DNA of 23,649 nucleotides from positions 1 to 23,649 of IMG/VR virus record IMGVR_UViG_3300005260_000046; one strand, 5' to 3'. Positions 11,031 through 23,649 of this stretch are shown piece after piece; positions within the stretch are counted from its first letter, which is position 1, and every line of letters begins with the position of its first letter. The notes under the pieces were generated by a model. It was not told the origin of the DNA and did not search any database. It saw only the letters and a program-made list of their open reading frames with translations. The position numbers and the translations under genes are program-made. The stretch is from a virus.

Positions 11031-11462
11031 ATGGAACCCAAGTCCTATCAATATAGCCTTCTCAATTGCTTGGCCTGGTTTCTTAATTGCGCGATATACG
11101 GGTATCTGCTATCGAGAGTATTTAGACCCTCGCACACTTTACCACCTTTTTGGCTTTATGTTGGAATATTCGCAATTGCCATATGGACATATCGATTCTT
11201 CGAACAGTTGATGTATTATTTTATACCGTTCATCTTAGGCAGAACCGCTTTCAAATTGGATAGTGAAGGGCTTTCTTACAGGAGCAAAACTGTTGGCTGG
11301 CAGGAGATAAAAGAAATTAAAGTATCTACAATGGGCACCAGACTGAAGCTTATTTTGAACGACCGTAAAAAGGTAAGAATTAATTTAAACATCATCAAAG
11401 GCAATGATGCTGAAATACATCGAAATTTGCTAACCTATTTTGAAAAGAGCAAAACGCAATGA
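11031..11462 (+). CDS. Membrane protein with PH-like cytoplasmic domain (accessory gene)
   Basis: The 143-residue protein has two membrane helices (about residues 9-29 and 38-56, possibly running on to about 68), followed by a soluble beta domain. That domain begins AFKLDSEGLSYRSKTVGWQEIKEI, the signature seen in bacterial PH-like domains (strand, 'GL.yrs', then W-x-x-I-x-x-I). Such proteins occur in Bacteroidetes as small membrane proteins of unknown function, some next to toxin genes. Here the stop overlaps the start of a secreted protein gene (ATGA), so the two form a translationally coupled pair on the plus strand, against the late genes. I see no clear promoter in the 60 bases upstream. 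The function is unknown; immunity, exclusion or envelope stress roles are guesses. Confidence 0.7.
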   Translation: MEPKSYQYSLLNCLAWFLNCAIYGYLLSRVFRPSHTLPPFWLYVGIFAIAIWTYRFFEQLMYYFIPFILGRTAFKLDSEGLSYRSKTVGWQEIKEIKVSTMGTRLKLILNDRKKVRINLNIIKGNDAEIHRNLLTYFEKSKTQ

Positions 11463-12343
11463 AATATTGTATCACTTTTTTAAAATACGCCTTTTCAATT
11501 TTATCAGCGGTTTTTGCTGTAAATAGTTTTTCTTACGCCCAATCCCAAAACTGTAATTGTCCCGCAAATGAGTTTGGCTATTCAAAGGCAAAAAAGGCTG
11601 ACACCGTTTTTCACCTGTCCAACGATAAATCGATTGCCTTATACGGAAGTAAAGATACCGAAATTGCAAAAGGCAGAACCTTCTATTCTGAATTTGTGCT
11701 TGCTGCTTGCGGCGAAAAGAATGTTATCAAATTCTGGGGGGCCGTGCTGGAATGCCAGCTAAAAGTAAAAAAAAATACACTTATAGTTGAGACCGTTGAC
11801 AGCTTGACAACCGGTAAAAATATGCGATACAAATGGACGGTGTGGACCATGGAGCGCATCTATTTCAAGAATGGCAAAGCTGTAAAAGATTTTAAAGTTA
11901 ACAGGCAAATGCCTAAGTATAATGCGCAGGAGATACAGTCGACTTTGAAACAATATGAAGAGTCTGTCAAGAAAGATGAAGCTATAAATAACCCCAATCG
12001 CGTCAATAATGTGAATATGGAAATAGCTGACAAGCTGTTCATAAGTGCCATTTCGGGAAGCAGACAGGCGCGCGAATATTTGAAGCACTTTAGATCGCAT
12101 TTTGGCGGCCTCGACGGCGAATATTTGGAATGGTACGATAATCTGACGCGAAAAATGAAAGAGTGGGATACCAACACATCTGCTAATGAATATAGGTTAT
12201 ATCATTCCTCAAAACAATTCAATGCCCGCCATATAGTTCGTTCATCGCGGCCAAATTTGCCGGCGGCTTCCAGTACGGCCTGGTGCTTGCTGAGGCCCCG
12301 CTTTTTTACCTGGGCCTCCACCCATAAATACATTTCGCGGTAA
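11459..12343 (+). CDS. Secreted protein of unknown function whose 3' end runs antisense into the next gene
   Basis: The ORF encodes 294 residues. Residues 1-28 are a signal peptide (MKYCITFLKYAFSILSAVFA, cleavage after SYAQ). The mature part begins with a Cys-rich stretch (CNCPANEFGYSK), has further cysteines and a C-terminal helical region (IQSTLKQYEESVKKDEAI, then REYLKHFRSHFGG). It starts by ATGA overlap with the PH-like membrane gene, so the two proteins probably work together at the envelope. From about residue 249 the frame is the exact antisense of the small HTH-like minus-strand gene, with a low-complexity, unprotein-like tail (SSRPNLPAASS). The native end was therefore probably near residue 248 and its stop lost. 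No family is recognised. Confidence 0.65.
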   Translation: MKYCITFLKYAFSILSAVFAVNSFSYAQSQNCNCPANEFGYSKAKKADTVFHLSNDKSIALYGSKDTEIAKGRTFYSEFVLAACGEKNVIKFWGAVLECQLKVKKNTLIVETVDSLTTGKNMRYKWTVWTMERIYFKNGKAVKDFKVNRQMPKYNAQEIQSTLKQYEESVKKDEAINNPNRVNNVNMEIADKLFISAISGSRQAREYLKHFRSHFGGLDGEYLEWYDNLTRKMKEWDTNTSANEYRLYHSSKQFNARHIVRSSRPNLPAASSTAWCLLRPRFFTWASTHKYISR

Positions 12344-12432
12344 ATAAAGATCTTGCCGGTAATGAAACCGGCTTTGTACATTTCGGAAAAAATGCCATCG
12401 TTGAATAAGGTGTTGGCGAGGGTGATATTCAT
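12202..12432 (-). CDS. Small HTH-like protein of the late region
   Basis: The 76-residue protein from the ATG at 12432 begins MNITLANTLFNDGIFSEMYK. Its C-terminus (KHQAVLEAAGKFGRDERTIWRAL) has the helix-turn-helix look of small DNA-binding proteins that recruit RNA polymerase or control late genes. A longer reading of the frame to 12504 adds a Cys/Ile-rich N-terminus that looks like untranslated sequence. It lies between the tape measure and the protease genes, in the late orientation. It is one of the few candidates in the window for a regulator acting at the bipartite elements at 10735-10974; that link is speculative. A virion-associated small helical protein is the alternative. Confidence 0.6.
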   Translation of the reverse strand: MNITLANTLFNDGIFSEMYKAGFITGKIFIYREMYLWVEAQVKKRGLSKHQAVLEAAGKFGRDERTIWRALNCFEE

Positions 12433-12455
12433 AAAAAAAATTGATCGAGAAAATA

Positions 12456-12500
12456 AACCTTTGCAGGTTATTGTTATCCTAATTAAAACTAATATATTTA
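12456..12500 (+). promoter_or_regulatory. Bacteroidetes-type promoter of the plus-strand lipoprotein gene
   Basis: TTG (12471-12473), 19 bases, TATATTTA (12493-12500) fits TTTG-N19-TAnnTTTG except the last base, with the start codon 22 bases further on. A dyad, AACCT-TTGC-AGGTT (12456-12469), lies just upstream of the TTG and may be an operator shared with the divergent HTH-like gene. Confidence 0.55.
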
Positions 12501-12522
12501 GCACAATTTAAACCTAAGCATT

Positions 12523-13041
12523 ATGCTATTTCAAGTAAAAAGCTCATCTACCAGGATATTGGTATCAATCATCTTCGCAGTAATTGTTTCGTCTTGCGGA
12601 GTTAGGATTAAACAGCAATATTATGATGATGATTATCAAACCACTGTTCTTCCAACATCTGATAAAATTCTTTGTACTAATGAGAATGGTGAGAGAATAG
12701 ATGGATGGCTAATTGCGAGACATGATTCCATTTTTTTAGTATTGCAGCTCCAGTATTCACGATCAAATCACAGAAGATTTTATATGCCACAGGGAGATTA
12801 TTTATCTGTAGAATTTTCTGATGGCGAATATTACCATTTGATCAATGGCTGGGGCACAAGATCGTGGCGAGGCAACGTATTGGGTGATGACGATCGTATA
12901 ACGAACGCTTTCATCCCATTGTCAGATAATGATATGAGCAAATTATTATCAAAAACGATTGTTGCCTTAAATGTGCAAACCAGTGCCAGCAATACAAGAT
13001 TCATTGTAAAGCCTAAGAAGGACCTTGCTCTTAAAAAATGA
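12523..13041 (+). CDS. Predicted lipoprotein (accessory gene)
   Basis: The 172-residue protein carries a lipoprotein signal: a basic start (MLFQVKSSSTRILVSIIFAV), then VIVSSC with Cys25 as the lipidation site and Gly next. The mature part starts with an acidic/aromatic segment (YYDDDYQTT) and is predicted beta-rich, with NENGERIDGWLIARHDSIFLVLQLQYSR and an aromatic segment YYHLINGWGTRSWRGN. I do not recognise a family. It is A/T-rich, lies on the plus strand against the late genes, has its own host-type promoter, and is convergent with the tape measure gene, whose stop is 77 bases away. It probably acts at the outer membrane of the lysogen, for example in receptor masking or exclusion; that is inference. 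Confidence 0.72.
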   Translation: MLFQVKSSSTRILVSIIFAVIVSSCGVRIKQQYYDDDYQTTVLPTSDKILCTNENGERIDGWLIARHDSIFLVLQLQYSRSNHRRFYMPQGDYLSVEFSDGEYYHLINGWGTRSWRGNVLGDDDRITNAFIPLSDNDMSKLLSKTIVALNVQTSASNTRFIVKPKKDLALKK

Positions 13042-13117: not shown

Positions 13118-14344
13118 TTAAAGGTTGACCCGGTTCACCGTTTGTGCCATTATATTTTGTTGGTTGTTTATATCCTTCACATCGACATATACCGGCGGGA
13201 AATTATTGATCATCTGGTAAGCTATCGTATTGGCCAAATTCTTATTGTCATTCACCGGCTGGTTGTAATAACGGTTGGCATTGCCGCCATCGGTAAAGAT
13301 GCCGCCTACTGCATATCCTTTTGAATAGGCAGGAACTGAAAAATCGCGGCCGCCGTAGGCTACGTTAATAGCGCTTACCATATTGCGCGCCCATGGATCG
13401 CGCATGGCCTCGGATACCACCACTCCTTCGCCTGAGCGCAAATGCGCATTGGTATTGTCAGAGCGGCTGTAGCCAGGTAGGACTGCACCTTTGCCATCTG
13501 ACCTGAAATAACCCCCTTTGGCATAAGTGGCTAATTTGGCGGGCGGCTGCTGCGCCTCTATTGTTGCAATTTGGGATGCTGTTTGCGCTACTATGGCAGC
13601 AAGAGCAATGGTACCTGCGATAGGCCCTAACTCGGCCTCGGCTTTTGTGACAGCCATGGCACCGTTCATGATGGCTTGGGCGATGTTGTATTTTTGCTCT
13701 TGTTTAAAGGCATTGCGTTTAGCCGTATCCTCCAATTTGTATATGTTGTTTTCTTTCGTTTTCTTATCGGAGGCTTCAAGGCTCGTATTGTTATCTATGG
13801 CTTTTCGCTGATCCTCCAGCCCCCGGACCTGTGCATCACGCCGTTCATCAATGCCTTTTGTAATTATATTGAAAACAGCGTCAGAAGTTTTTTGGGCGCT
13901 TTCAATCTCACTGGCACGGATCTTGTCCTGTGAGGCCTTGGTACTCTGTTCGATTGCAGTGTTAGTCTGTTTGTTGGCCTGTACAGCCGCATCAGTTCCC
14001 TTCTTTAACGGCTTTTTGTAATAACCTTCCACGTTGCTAAAAATATTTTTGAAACCGGTACTGAAGACAGTACCTATGGTTTCCCCAAAAGATTTTAATG
14101 ACTTAATAAAGCCATTGATGATATTGTTAGCTTGCTGAACTTGTTTTGCACCGTCCGTTGTGATTTTGGTAGCACTTTCACTTATCGTGTCTATGTTTTT
14201 TTGGGCTTTCGATACACCCTCAGCTAAGTTGGCAACTGCGGCGTTAAGGTCGGTCACTGCTCCTGAATATTTGTCCAATTGCTGAAGTCCGTCTGAATTT
14301 ACTTGCACATCGAGCGTGATTTTTTTATTAATGTCGTCTGCCAT
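13118..14344 (-). CDS. Tail tape measure protein (short)
   Basis: Spans the tail lumen and sets its length; it also helps DNA enter the host. The 408 residues begin with polar coiled-coil heptads (LNAAVANLAEGVSKAQKNIDT), then helical repeats rich in Lys, Gln and Ala. A hydrophobic segment lies at about 219-262 (PIAGTIALAAIVAQTASQIA), and the Gly-rich C-terminal region carries the pattern common in tape measures, YAKGGYFRSDGKG and LRSGEGVVVSEAMRDPWARN. Such proteins are often 600-1500 residues, so a short tail is expected. The gene follows the two large tail proteins and a secreted-protein cargo gene, and it is well separated from the assembly chaperone, which normally lies just before it. Confidence 0.83.
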   Translation of the reverse strand: MADDINKKITLDVQVNSDGLQQLDKYSGAVTDLNAAVANLAEGVSKAQKNIDTISESATKITTDGAKQVQQANNIINGFIKSLKSFGETIGTVFSTGFKNIFSNVEGYYKKPLKKGTDAAVQANKQTNTAIEQSTKASQDKIRASEIESAQKTSDAVFNIITKGIDERRDAQVRGLEDQRKAIDNNTSLEASDKKTKENNIYKLEDTAKRNAFKQEQKYNIAQAIMNGAMAVTKAEAELGPIAGTIALAAIVAQTASQIATIEAQQPPAKLATYAKGGYFRSDGKGAVLPGYSRSDNTNAHLRSGEGVVVSEAMRDPWARNMVSAINVAYGGRDFSVPAYSKGYAVGGIFTDGGNANRYYNQPVNDNKNLANTIAYQMINNFPPVYVDVKDINNQQNIMAQTVNRVNL

Positions 14345-14475: not shown

Positions 14476-15042
14476 TTAAAGATCTGATCTTCTTCTGGAC
14501 TGAACTAAACTAAACAAGGCAGCATCCTGGTATACCAGCATAACATTCAGCGAATGTACAGTGGACTGAAACTCTAATGAGGCCGCATTTTTATTTTTCG
14601 ATCGCCACAGGGTTGTGCAAAATTGATTGCCTGATTTGAGCATTCTTATGCGGGTTCTATTGTTTTCTGAATCCCTAAAATTGTTGGTAAGGATGCCTTT
14701 GCCGTAAACCGCGTTGATATCATTCCTCAAATTATCATAGAAATCAAGTACTTCGTCTTCAGGAGAGACTACGAAAATAAAATCAGCTTCATAAGCTTTA
14801 TTATCTACAAATTTAATTACACAGCCAACTTCTCTTCCACTCACGGTAAAGCCCGCAAATACTGGACTGTCTTTTCGGCTCAGCGAATCGATTTGTTTTC
14901 CGCCCTTAGCCGCTATGGCATTTTTTACAGTGATCGAATCGCTTCCAAAAGGGATGTCCAGAAACCCGTCAATAGATTTTTTGCCTTGAGAGAATGCAAT
15001 CAGAGGCATAGTAATTATCAATAGTAATAGAAGTTTTTTCAT
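14476..15042 (-). CDS. Secreted protein of unknown function (accessory gene)
   Basis: The 188-residue protein starts at the ATG at 15042 (MKKLLLLLIITMPLIAFSQG, a clear Sec signal peptide with cleavage after FSQ); a TTG four codons upstream is unlikely. The mature part begins with SIDGFLDIPFGSDSITVKNAI, a pattern like small periplasmic proteins that start with 'G...iPFG.s...v...l'. It ends with a Ser/Arg-rich tail. No catalytic motif is visible. It is transcribed with the late genes but has its own perfect host-type promoter in the 66 bases between it and the upstream tail gene. It is the only minus-strand cargo gene in the tail module and probably acts in the periplasm of the lysogen. Confidence 0.7.
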   Translation of the reverse strand: MKKLLLLLIITMPLIAFSQGKKSIDGFLDIPFGSDSITVKNAIAAKGGKQIDSLSRKDSPVFAGFTVSGREVGCVIKFVDNKAYEADFIFVVSPEDEVLDFYDNLRNDINAVYGKGILTNNFRDSENNRTRIRMLKSGNQFCTTLWRSKNKNAASLEFQSTVHSLNVMLVYQDAALFSLVQSRRRSDL

Positions 15043-15060
15043 GCGTAAGGCCAAGTATTA

Positions 15061-20405: not shown

Positions 20406-20708
20406 TTATCGTTGTGCGCTCAGCAACTCGGTGTAGCGACGCTGGTATTCGGCTTCAGTTTTATTTAGCAGCAGTTTGGTGAGCATACGCTCGTAAGGCA
20501 TAGCCAGGATGACCGGCCATTTGGTGATATCGCCACCGGAGAGTGCATTTATGGTGTTAATATATTTGAATTTCTCAAACGCCTGGATACCTGCCTTTTT
20601 CTCCAGCGCTGACGGAGCTGTCGCAAGAAGCCTATTTTCTGTTTCAATAAGTTGGGATAACAGGTAAAAAAATGTCGGGCGATAGGCAGAGCCTCCGTTA
20701 CCTTTAGT
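20406..20708 (-). CDS. -1 frame extension of the tail assembly chaperone (GT-like product)
   Basis: This frame has no plausible start of its own but encodes 100 clearly protein-like residues from the shift point: TKGNGGSAYRPTFFYLLSQL, then IETENRLLATAPSALEKKAG, IQAFEKFKYINTINALSGGD, and a helical end ERMLTKLLLNKTEAEYQRRY. It overlaps the 3' end of the chaperone gene, whose zero frame has the slippery run A_AAA_AAA (20714-20708). Slipping back one base joins residue 181 of the chaperone to this frame, giving a 281-residue product. This is the gpG/gpGT arrangement of lambda-like phages, in which the extension recruits the tape measure to tube subunits. It is a real second frame by composition; that the shift occurs is inferred. 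Confidence 0.7.
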   Translation of the reverse strand, partial: TKGNGGSAYRPTFFYLLSQLIETENRLLATAPSALEKKAGIQAFEKFKYINTINALSGGDITKWPVILAMPYERMLTKLLLNKTEAEYQRRYTELLSAQR

Positions 20709-21250
20709 TTTTTTACTTCTTCACAAAATTCTTCAGCTTCATATTCATCGTACCTTTTGCCGGTAACGCGGCAAAAAAAGTAGTGCGACAATACCTGGGA
20801 GCAAGCTTTCAGCGAGGGAAGGAAATGATCTTGCCAGTCTTCTTCACCATATAAGTTGATATGCTCGTTGATCTCGTCAGCAATGATGTCCCTTGCAGCA
20901 AGGAAGGCGCCGGCGGGTTCGACTGACAAATTGTGCGTGACATTAATTACAATTTTTTTACCGTCGATAACAAATGTTATGCGGTTTGGAATGCTATCGC
21001 TTTGATACAGGTACCTGATCTGGTTTGCCAGGGAATTTACGTAATCGCCAAAGGTGAGAAAGTCCTCGAAGTTTTTGACCGCGTTCAGCTCATCTTTCGG
21101 TATACCTGAGAGTATGCTGATCGCGTCCAGGTCGTCGAGATAAGATTTTTCCTGCATAGCCAGCATCTGGCCTAAGGTCAATTCATTGAGCAAGGTAGGT
21201 ATTCTGACCCTGATCTTTCCGTCAGTTGTTTTTAATATTTTTTCTATCAT
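20549..21250 (-). CDS. Tail assembly chaperone (G-like), source of a programmed frameshift
   Basis: The 233-residue zero-frame product starts at the ATG at 21250 (MIEKILKTTDGKIRVRIPTL), preceded by a GGGGAAAGGGGG run that may act as a Shine-Dalgarno, unusual here. It is helical with acid-rich segments (EDWQDHF, DEYEAEEFCEEVKK). In the zero frame it ends in a basic tail (RQRWRKRQVSRRLRNSN). The stretch before the end contains two heptamers suited to -1 slippage, A_AAA_AAA (20714-20708) and T_TTT_TTT (20672-20666). The -1 frame stays open to 20406 with convincing protein sequence. Assembly chaperones of siphoviruses are made in exactly this way. The gene lies after the large terminase rather than next to the tape measure. 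Confidence 0.75.
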   Translation of the reverse strand: MIEKILKTTDGKIRVRIPTLLNELTLGQMLAMQEKSYLDDLDAISILSGIPKDELNAVKNFEDFLTFGDYVNSLANQIRYLYQSDSIPNRITFVIDGKKIVINVTHNLSVEPAGAFLAARDIIADEINEHINLYGEEDWQDHFLPSLKACSQVLSHYFFCRVTGKRYDEYEAEEFCEEVKKLKVTEALPIARHFFTCYPNLLKQKIGFLRQLRQRWRKRQVSRRLRNSNILTP

Positions 21251-21321: not shown

Positions 21322-22548
21322 TTAATTATCAATTATTTCTTTCAATGATCCCCATGCTGGCGGGCCCGGAATCAAAGGAAACCTGACTTTGGACTTAGCT
21401 AAGTTATTGATTTTTAGTTTATTTAATGCAATATATCTTAAAGGATCTATCAAATGATTCCAATCGTCCGAAGGCTGATTTAATATTTTGCCCTCGCGAG
21501 CCCTTCTCCACTTGTATTTTTTTAGTTCGTTGAGTAAGTCAATACTTGAACGCGTGACATTGAGTTTGTATCTTTTTAAAATATCGATGGATAATCTAAC
21601 GCTGTCCGGGCCTTTTCTGGCCGGAACAATTCTCCATCCCATCCGCCGGAGTTCTTCTATAGATTTGGGCTCGGCGCTGTCGGCAATTATTTCGATATTC
21701 CGATTTAATCCGGCATCAGCAAGCTTTTGTGAAATATCCGGGTTTGTGAGTCCGGTTTCATATATCAGCTCTTCGATCCATAACTCGCCGGTTTGCTTAT
21801 AGACTATGATACAGCCGGTAGGATCATTGGTGTAACCAAAGTCCAACCCGGCCGCAACAAGTTTTGCTTTCGGTGGAATATCTTCGCATATCTGCCAGTT
21901 GTCCAGGACCAGTCCGTGTATTCTTCCGGTTAAACCGCGGGCGTAAACCTTCCATCGTTCATTATCAGTTTGCTTCAATGACTCGATCTTTTTCCTGGTA
22001 GCCACGTCAAGGAAAGGATTGTGCCGATGATCGGAGATGATAAGCTGGACACCTGGTTCCCCTAATAAATATTCGTGCACCCAAAAATCGGTATTGGGAT
22101 TGTAATCGATATAAATCCTTTTTCGTGTACGCAATGCCAGCTCGCTGTAGACATCCCAGCTAATACCGTTGGCTTCGTTTACGAACAGGTAGTCGCGTTT
22201 TCCCGACTTGGCATCCTGCGCATCGGCATAGCTTTTGAATTCGATCACGCTGCCGGTCCTGAATTGAAAAATACGTTCGGATTTGTTGTATGACGTTACA
22301 GATGCTTTTAATTTGTCCGACCGTTTGTATATATCTAATGCATCGCGTAAAACGCCGGATTTTATATTTGGGATATCCTGGCCTGTTACGGTGATGATCT
22401 GTTGCGTTTGCTCGCAGGCTAACGTAAATAGTACTTGCAAGATGGCCGTCGTTTTTCCGGAGCTGGTACCACCCTGGTTTACTACAATATGTGCTTTCGC
22501 GCTGTAGTTTTTCTCGAATAATACCGATGCTTTATAACCGTTAGCCAT
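21322..22548 (-). CDS. terL: Terminase large subunit
   Basis: The motor and nuclease that cuts concatemeric phage DNA and drives it into the prohead. The 408-residue protein has both halves. The N-terminal ATPase carries a Walker A GGTSSGKT (26-33) and a Walker B YLFVNEA (120-126) with the catalytic E125; DYNPNTDFWVHEYL (148-161) follows. The C-terminal RNase H-like nuclease carries acidic positions D236 in GLDFGYTNDPT, D290 in IIADSAEPKSIEEL and D368 in NHLIDPLRY. This is the Terminase_3 (PBSX-like) arrangement. The gene is separated from the small subunit by the plus-strand lipoprotein gene. It starts 60 bases from that gene's start, so the two are divergent. Confidence 0.96.
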   Translation of the reverse strand: MANGYKASVLFEKNYSAKAHIVVNQGGTSSGKTTAILQVLFTLACEQTQQIITVTGQDIPNIKSGVLRDALDIYKRSDKLKASVTSYNKSERIFQFRTGSVIEFKSYADAQDAKSGKRDYLFVNEANGISWDVYSELALRTRKRIYIDYNPNTDFWVHEYLLGEPGVQLIISDHRHNPFLDVATRKKIESLKQTDNERWKVYARGLTGRIHGLVLDNWQICEDIPPKAKLVAAGLDFGYTNDPTGCIIVYKQTGELWIEELIYETGLTNPDISQKLADAGLNRNIEIIADSAEPKSIEELRRMGWRIVPARKGPDSVRLSIDILKRYKLNVTRSSIDLLNELKKYKWRRAREGKILNQPSDDWNHLIDPLRYIALNKLKINNLAKSKVRFPLIPGPPAWGSLKEIIDN

Positions 22549-22608: not shown

Positions 22609-23175
22609 ATGCGTCATTTTTATCACTTTTGCCTGTTCCTGTTTGCGTCAATATTGTTTTTTGCCTGTAAGCCCGACAAGAATGGTGTAGTTCCCCTTCA
22701 AGCATCCCAAAAGATGATAGTAGGCACCTGGGCAATGCAACAAGAGCATTACACGCAATATATTGATGGTGTAAAGCAGCAAGATACCACTGTTAACGCT
22801 ACAGACTATAACCGGGCCTATATCAAATTTAATGGTAATGGCACTTTCAGCAGTGCCGGTGTTTACACGTCAGCGGATATGGGCAGCCTGAGCGGCGGGT
22901 TGGTAAACGCGGCCGACTCTACATCTGGTACCTTTAGCTTTACAGGTTCGGCATTAAGCTTGTCGGAACCGATAGCAGGTTTGGTGATGAATGCATCATT
23001 TGGGGTAGTGAGTACCATTACAGCACCTGTTATCACTCCTGTTTCGCATGCTGTTTCGATAAGCCAGTTAACGGCTGCGGCACTGAAGATACATACAGAA
23101 TATATTTATACCTACTCCGTAAACAGCTCGTCGCAGACTTATAAAATGGAGGACGACTATTATTACACCAAATAG
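22609..23175 (+). CDS. Predicted lipoprotein, lipocalin-like (accessory gene)
   Basis: The 188-residue protein has a lipoprotein signal (MRHFYHFCLFLFASILFFAC, Cys20 lipidated) followed by KPDK, which has the Lys/Asp look of Bacteroidetes surface-export lipoproteins. The mature part has MIVGTWAMQ (36-44), the first strand of lipocalin-like beta barrels, then strand repeats (YNRAYIKFNGNGTFSS, STSGTFSFTGSALSL). This is common in small Bacteroidetes lipoproteins, usually of unknown function. It is inserted on the plus strand between the two terminase genes. Its stop is immediately next to the small terminase stop (TAG then CTA, reading TAGCTA). It likely sits on the cell surface of the lysogen; receptor masking would be an attractive but unproven role. 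Confidence 0.75.
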   Translation: MRHFYHFCLFLFASILFFACKPDKNGVVPLQASQKMIVGTWAMQQEHYTQYIDGVKQQDTTVNATDYNRAYIKFNGNGTFSSAGVYTSADMGSLSGGLVNAADSTSGTFSFTGSALSLSEPIAGLVMNASFGVVSTITAPVITPVSHAVSISQLTAAALKIHTEYIYTYSVNSSSQTYKMEDDYYYTK

Positions 23176-23649
23176 CTAAAGCGCTACTTCGCTTTCTGAT
23201 GATACTGGCATATGTTCGGATGGAACCATTTCGACTTTAAGTATGTTATCAGATTCGTTTTCGTCAGGTTTTTCAATCGATCTATCAGTCCAGCCCAAAG
23301 TTTTTAACATGTGCGTAACGCCGGTTGACGAGGAACCATGAAGTTTTTTTTCATATTCAGCAATGATGCGCAATTTTGCCCGCTTTGCCTGGTCGGCATA
23401 TTCGCCGTGTGCTTCATAGTCTTCAAATTGCTGCTTGCTGACGAAGCCCAGGAAGTACATGAGCCCTGCAGCAGTCGGCGGTTCCGGTTCCCGATCAGTT
23501 ATTTTCACAGACTGGCGTTTTGACCGGCCGTTTTCGTCTTTTATTTTTCTGCGGACGGTACGTGTGACGCCTTTGATGGATGTGAAATAATCGGCGATTA
23601 AATCTTCAATATCGCTTAGTGATGAGAATAAAGGTTTAGTTGTTTCCAT
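23176..23649 (-). CDS. Terminase small subunit
   Basis: Recognises the packaging site and delivers DNA to the large subunit. The 157-residue protein has a helical middle, PPTAAGLMYFLGFVSKQQFEDYEAHGEYADQAKRAKLRIIAEYEKKLHG (about 57-105), matching the P22 gp3-type packaging protein pattern: 'T..GL...LGF.S.Q.....' then a basic helix. A lysine/arginine-rich stretch (VRRKIKDENGRSKR, about 32-45) precedes it. The C-terminal part ends in the acid-rich tail SESEVAL. The ATG coincides with the right edge of the window, so the gene is complete but its promoter and packaging site lie outside. The plus-strand lipoprotein gene separates it from the large subunit. Confidence 0.8.
   Translation of the reverse strand: METTKPLFSSLSDIEDLIADYFTSIKGVTRTVRRKIKDENGRSKRQSVKITDREPEPPTAAGLMYFLGFVSKQQFEDYEAHGEYADQAKRAKLRIIAEYEKKLHGSSSTGVTHMLKTLGWTDRSIEKPDENESDNILKVEMVPSEHMPVSSESEVAL
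23178..23195 (+). terminator. Short hairpin at the convergent ends of lipoprotein and terminase genes
   Basis: AAAGCG (23178-23183) and CGCTTT (23190-23195) form a perfect 6-base stem with a 6-base loop, starting 3 bases after the lipoprotein stop and inside the end of the small terminase gene. Without a long T-run its effect as a terminator is uncertain. Confidence 0.3.

Follow-up and report, generated by a model that had tools for sequence, protein, structure and literature searches.

The window, the whole 23,649-bp stretch of this virus record, has nearly all of its genes on the minus strand and encodes the small and large subunits of a terminase, a tape-measure-like protein and a head protease, with capsid and portal genes assigned by position and size. 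The small terminase subunit (23176..23649, minus strand) matches phrog_606 (E = 1.5e-10), the large subunit (21322..22548, minus strand) matches phrog_2 (E = 2.3e-35) and PF17288/PF04466 above the cut-off, and the tape-measure-like protein (13118..14344, minus strand) matches phrog_3336 (E = 1.2e-9). Accessory genes that differ among relatives, several of them on the opposite strand, lie between the structural genes at 1521-2351, 11031-13041, 14476-15054 and 22609-23175; the gene at 1521-2351 resembles an FkbM-type methyltransferase by eye.

The large terminase is directly upstream of a gene that is open in two overlapping frames on the minus strand. The 0 frame (21250-20549) starts with an ATG at 21250, stops at 20551-20549 and encodes 233 amino acids. 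The -1 frame (20406..20720) is preceded by a stop at 20723 and is open from 20720 to the stop at 20408-20406, a stretch of 104 codons with no ATG, GTG or TTG among the first 72. The frames are joined at T_TTT_TTT (20666..20672, 0-frame codons CAT TTT TTT ACC), which gives a fused product of 195 + 86 = 281 amino acids that reads IARHFF and then YLLSQLIETENR across the slip. The 195-residue N-terminal domain (20666..21250; AlphaFold2 model mean pLDDT 90.7) is common to both products, the 86-residue -1-frame C-terminal domain and its stop (20406..20666) belong to the long product, and the short product has a 0-frame tail of 38 codons and a stop (20549..20665) that overlaps the -1 frame and contains TCYPNLLK. 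Frame analysis and relatives agree with the first-pass annotation, in which a 0 frame ended at 20549, a startless -1 frame ran on to 20406 and the products had 233 and 281 residues. That annotation also placed X_XXY_YYZ heptamers in the overlap without saying which one was meant. Two heptamers are in the correct register, and conservation separates them: T_TTT_TTT is kept among relatives, and A_AAA_AAA (20714-20708) was rejected as the slip site, being present in only 28 of 68 non-redundant copies and lying upstream of a stretch, between the two heptamers, in which the 0 frame is still conserved.

Close relatives on viral contigs were sought with peptide patterns placed outside the slip site. 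All 58 carry N and C segments that meet at residues 194/195 (31-84% identity, best segments), and 57 of them have the simple -1 relation with T_TTT_TTT in register; in the exception (L058) the heptamer is present and a second, separate frame break lies upstream. A genome scan yielded 70 loci, nearly all from the soil bacterium Mucilaginibacter, and a C-domain scan added a few more. T_TTT_TTT is in register in every genome locus that reaches the site; the others are cut short by a contig end or a deletion, apart from one copy with an interruption past the site. All 68 copies of a non-redundant set (mutual identity <83%) have a wobble T at each of the three heptamer codons, compared with 30-62 of 64-68 copies (44-91%) at control conserved Phe/Tyr codons; the wobble test rests on related sequences, but the contrast with the control codons does not require them to be independent. 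The T-run is 7 long in 51 copies, 8 in 7 and 9 in 10, and these differences are 3'-side substitutions that leave the in-register heptamer constant.

A homopolymer is a classic place for sequencing errors, and the locus could in principle be a single continuous gene minus one T, either misread or decayed. This explanation is rejected because the relatives keep the same two-frame relation, which recurs in over 100 different sequences taken from many assemblies, complete chromosomes included. Run lengths vary by substitution and never by a frame-restoring indel, and the 0 frame past the site is kept open; error or decay is thus left with a negligible probability. Homologues with a single continuous frame were sought and none was found among the close relatives, the only two being remote and shorter. 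The programmed -1 shift proposed on first reading is supported by both frames and the in-register T_TTT_TTT in close relatives.

Pairwise comparisons distinguish the frames by the position of their substitutions. Variability upstream of the site peaks at the 0-frame third position (15274 vs 7866 and 5423), and right after the site the peak shifts to the -1-frame third position (19672 vs 5514 and 10937), which also holds for the stretch where both frames are open. The substitution phase switches at the site, and therefore the protein read past it is mainly the -1 one. The C domain is conserved in a 50-row alignment (A4), and its mean column identity of 69% exceeds the 62% of the N domain.

The amino acid sequence of the 0-frame tail is mostly unconserved among relatives, and its reading frame was compared with sequences in which the -1 protein was kept and the codons were redrawn by the genes' own codon usage. 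A 0-frame stop falls before codon 35 in 93.6% of the recoded sequences, mostly at codons 2 and 5, compared with 6/109 real copies, none of which stops before codon 20. The real genes avoid early 0-frame stops through near-invariant Leu CTT and Ser TCC codons. CTC is equally stop-avoiding and never used at that Leu, and therefore some of the constraint acts on the nucleotide or the 0-frame residue. Comparative sequence evidence thus indicates that the 0 frame is kept open past the slip, giving the short product its own tail, which is a new result of this analysis. Charge and hydropathy of the tail do not differ from those of the recoded sequences. A selected position of the 0-frame stop was considered and found unsupported; with early stops avoided, the -1 protein alone makes stops at codons 35/38 likely.

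Profile searches gave 14 divergent loci from Mucilaginibacter and other Sphingobacteriaceae genera, which have T-runs of 8-10 and keep the -1 C domain, and one short, single-frame relative (G214, locus L302). In the divergent locus L296 (G175) the 0-frame tail resembles a membrane helix (VLIALAFMVILTLLILLLAAIYFAG); the other tails are basic. The N-domain model resembles gp38 of Nonlabens phage P12024S by Foldseek (E = 2.6e-4, probability 1.00), and its BFVD matches, gp38 among them, are uncharacterised phage proteins. The N-domain model has no fold match in the PDB, and the C-domain model (pLDDT 61) was too weak for structure search. In the gp38 gene a T9 run leads into a -1 ORF containing gp39, and comparison of the main-group and P12024S-group profiles gives probabilities of 93.9 for the N and 94.4 for the C domain. 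P12024S gp38/gp39 is like the window gene in its place directly after the large terminase, its fold, its related N and C profiles and its T-run with a -1 continuation, and unlike it in having T9 instead of T7, in the length of the 0-frame tails of its group (16-84 codons) and in being annotated as two unrelated genes. PHROGs files gp38 (phrog_32199) and gp39 (phrog_38404), which begins at a late start codon, as separate unknown families, in line with the expectation that automatic annotation would miss the long product.

In the P12024S group, which comprises gp38/gp39 itself and 42 related contigs, all 43 members carry T9 or T10, almost always exactly 9, a count to be read with the proviso that the distant contigs may have been found via the pattern FFYHLGND, which fixes Phe-Phe and not the TTT codons. 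Conservation of YHLGND after the slip in this group was set aside as partly an artefact of the same pattern. The -1 ORF has 80-92 amino acids in all but one of the group. The median recoded sequence of this group stops at about codon 6, and the openness of the real 0-frame tails gives p<=0.002 in 25/32, the four shortest tails not being significant. The C domain is also related to Elizabethkingia phage TCUEAP1 QGZ15838 (hhalign probability 96.6), encoded directly after the terminase. TCUEAP1 QGZ15838 and G214/L302 are unlike the window gene in having a single continuous frame, in which the N part is shorter and both T-run and shift are missing. Judged by these sequences the shift appears to be ancient within the family, yet it is not universal.

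The alignments show that each domain is under selection in its own frame, where exactly the slip site lies, that this site is conserved and that the 0-frame tail is open, and the gene probably makes two proteins by a programmed -1 slip on U_UUU_UUU, an abundant short one and a rarer long one with a G/GT-like role. Most ribosomes would stay in the 0 frame and produce the 233-residue protein, which consists of the N domain and a tail of about 38 residues and is presumably the more abundant product. A minority, with the Phe codons UUU UUU in tandem occupying the P and A sites, would slip back one base and produce the 281-residue protein, the same N domain followed by the conserved C domain.

The slip itself is more readily attributed to the ribosome than to transcription. 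Transcriptional slippage would have RNA polymerase add one U on the T-run, such that some mRNAs encode the fused frame and are read normally by ribosomes. This would fit T-runs of 7-10, which are at or above the reported slippage threshold, E. coli RNA polymerase slipping at ~5% on seven Ts and 10% on T8 (PMC6260861); it would also fit the 9-10 Ts of the distant relatives and the near-constant 9 of the P12024S group, and the absence of a downstream RNA structure at the slip site, where alifold found no conserved stem-loop or pseudoknot. An Rfam search gave no match. Ribosomes of E. coli shift far less on U_UUU_UUU than on A_AAA_AAG (PMC5009743). Polymerase slippage would be indifferent to register, yet the wobble T that completes the heptamer is kept in 17/68 copies with a following T, in which a 7-T run would exist without it; the corresponding 0.6^17 = 2e-4 if this position were free is only suggestive, since the copies share ancestry and selection may favour longer runs in their own right. 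The invariant part of the main group is exactly the heptamer, and a ribosome that slips on tandem UUU is proposed as the reason why the register-true heptamer is kept even where there is a T to spare. Slippage by RNA polymerase is a sizeable but distinctly less probable source of the fused frame.

The heptamer is the one element shared by all copies; the upstream motif is confined to one group. This DNA motif, GGGTAACGGAGGCRCTGCCCAT (20682..20703, minus strand), is wobble-conserved in the main group only, occurs in essentially one copy per genome and is absent from the divergent loci L120-L122, L124 and L125; it forms a weak hairpin and has GGAGG 19 nt before the slip. The upstream GGGUAACGGAGGCRCUGCCC hairpin and GGAGG are both doubtful as stimulators, being present in the main group only, spaced by 19 nt and absent from divergent loci that keep the heptamer. 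The upstream spacing in dnaX is ~10 nt, shorter than the 19 nt found here. A helix between the upstream GGGUAAC and the downstream GUUAUCCC was dropped, as the downstream part persists where the upstream part is lost.

The signature of tail assembly chaperones is a programmed -1 shift that yields a common N domain plus an extended form in small amounts. The window gene is like the lambda gpG/gpGT system, reportedly the subject of Levin 1993 and of Xu, Hendrix and Duda 2004, in its overlapping frames, its -1 shift on an X_XXY_YYZ heptamer late in the first frame, its shared N domain and extended C domain and its location in a structural-gene cluster. It is unlike lambda in slipping on U_UUU_UUU, in lying beside the terminase and not before the tape measure, in having no detectable sequence or fold match to gpG/gpGT, in a C domain that is better conserved than its N domain, and in a short product that is not a simple truncation and instead carries a 38-residue 0-frame tail of conserved openness. 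Two usual features of the chaperones are present: overlapping frames, the second being -1 without its own start and both being under protein-level selection, and a slippery heptamer conserved in the overlap. Two others are absent. The gene follows TerL and is not between the major tail protein and the tape measure, the tape-measure-like gene starting ~6 kb downstream, an arrangement that recurs wherever the cluster is intact in a set of 20 genomes, and searches with sequence profiles and against solved structures gave no Pfam, PHROG or PDB match to known chaperones. The identification as a tail assembly chaperone in the first-pass annotation is supported by the G/GT layout (described for lambda in PMC5009743) and not by similarity or gene position.

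A tail-chaperone role is likely, because the G/GT layout comes with a structural-cluster setting that includes terminase, tape measure, protease and capsid. If the pair behaves as gpG/gpGT does in lambda, the tape measure would be coated by the short, abundant product, and recruitment of tail-tube subunits would fall to the long, rarer one. The position directly after the large terminase in the window, P12024S and TCUEAP1, together with the lack of detected similarity to known tail chaperones, would also suit another morphogenetic role, such as a terminase partner or a head-tail joining factor, in place of tail-length control. That role is improbable given the chaperone-like pairing of a shared N domain with a rare extended form and a cluster in which a search, which was not exhaustive, showed no other tail-chaperone candidate. 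The protein would thus work like a tail chaperone, but it is not filed as a proven member of that class because its gene does not precede the tape measure, as is usual, and it does not resemble known chaperones.

Of 150 Mucilaginibacter genomes, 110 carry the N domain, nearly all of them in a single copy. Deletions aside, the cluster (genome loci L220-L259) has the same gene order across 20 genomes, most of which also share the genes upstream. In most of the 20 genomes the next feature downstream is a tRNA-Leu(gag)/tRNA-Leu(cag) pair, usually no more than ~100 bp beyond the last cluster gene (e.g. L221, L231 and L237); this pair is likely the ancestral attachment site. Upstream of the terminase (L230, L220), a pair of genes named by eye as RES-Xre toxin-antitoxin-like (clusters c19/c20) occurs in 10/20 genomes. 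The concatenated cluster tree has 9 of 17 splits in common with the rpoB tree, a level of agreement reached in at most 4 of 20,000 label shuffles. The cluster appears to be a former prophage inherited vertically with Mucilaginibacter, as in gene transfer agents, because it is single-copy, occupies one chromosomal place and has an rpoB-congruent tree. No integration or replication genes were seen among the conserved cluster genes in the matches listed, and an integrase-like ORF (cluster c42) lies just outside the cluster in a few genomes. These genomic grounds make the cluster a Bacteroidota candidate for either a gene transfer agent or a domesticated prophage. It is like gene transfer agents of the RcGTA type as a vertically inherited, single-copy structural cluster in one chromosomal place with no integrase or replication module seen among its conserved genes, and unlike them in containing a small-terminase gene, in having a different large terminase and in its Bacteroidota host. 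No description of a gene transfer agent from Mucilaginibacter or Bacteroidota was found in the open-access literature.

Seven genomes lack ~20 kb between the same two points (L073, L090, L091, L099, L101, L117 and L406). The deletion ends are TAC ...CCCATNGC (CCAATAGC in G085) and the holin-like ATHGTN..., which are equivalent to 20679/20678 and 676/675 in the window, and the deletion joins the tail-chaperone-like gene to the holin-like gene at the same nucleotide junction, close by on the 3' side of the conserved motif GGGTAACGGAGGCRCTGCCCAT. Six of the deletion genomes were tested for the major capsid gene, and none has it. The deletions group with their own species on the trees of both flanks and are polyphyletic; the starred branches of the TerL-side tree force at least four changes in deletion state. 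One further locus (L086) breaks at the same point as the deletions, into unrelated DNA. A fuller scenario, in which a living Bacteroidota gene transfer agent, retained while Mucilaginibacter diversified, would depend on the frameshift for tail assembly, would need the overlapping-frame tail of the short product and would have in the slip-adjacent motif a hot spot of recurrent exact structural-gene loss, is unlikely to hold as a whole.

A two-frame protein family of Bacteroidota phages that annotation misses or splits gains a concrete product structure and a testable site. The co-inheritance of the cluster with a bacterial genus makes it a gene-transfer-agent candidate in a phylum for which the open-access literature describes none. 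U_UUU_UUU is a poor site in E. coli, and that it is so strictly conserved here raises the question of how this sequence is handled by the ribosomes or polymerases of Bacteroidota. Selection for openness of the frame that is skipped over suggests that the short product is more than a truncated form.
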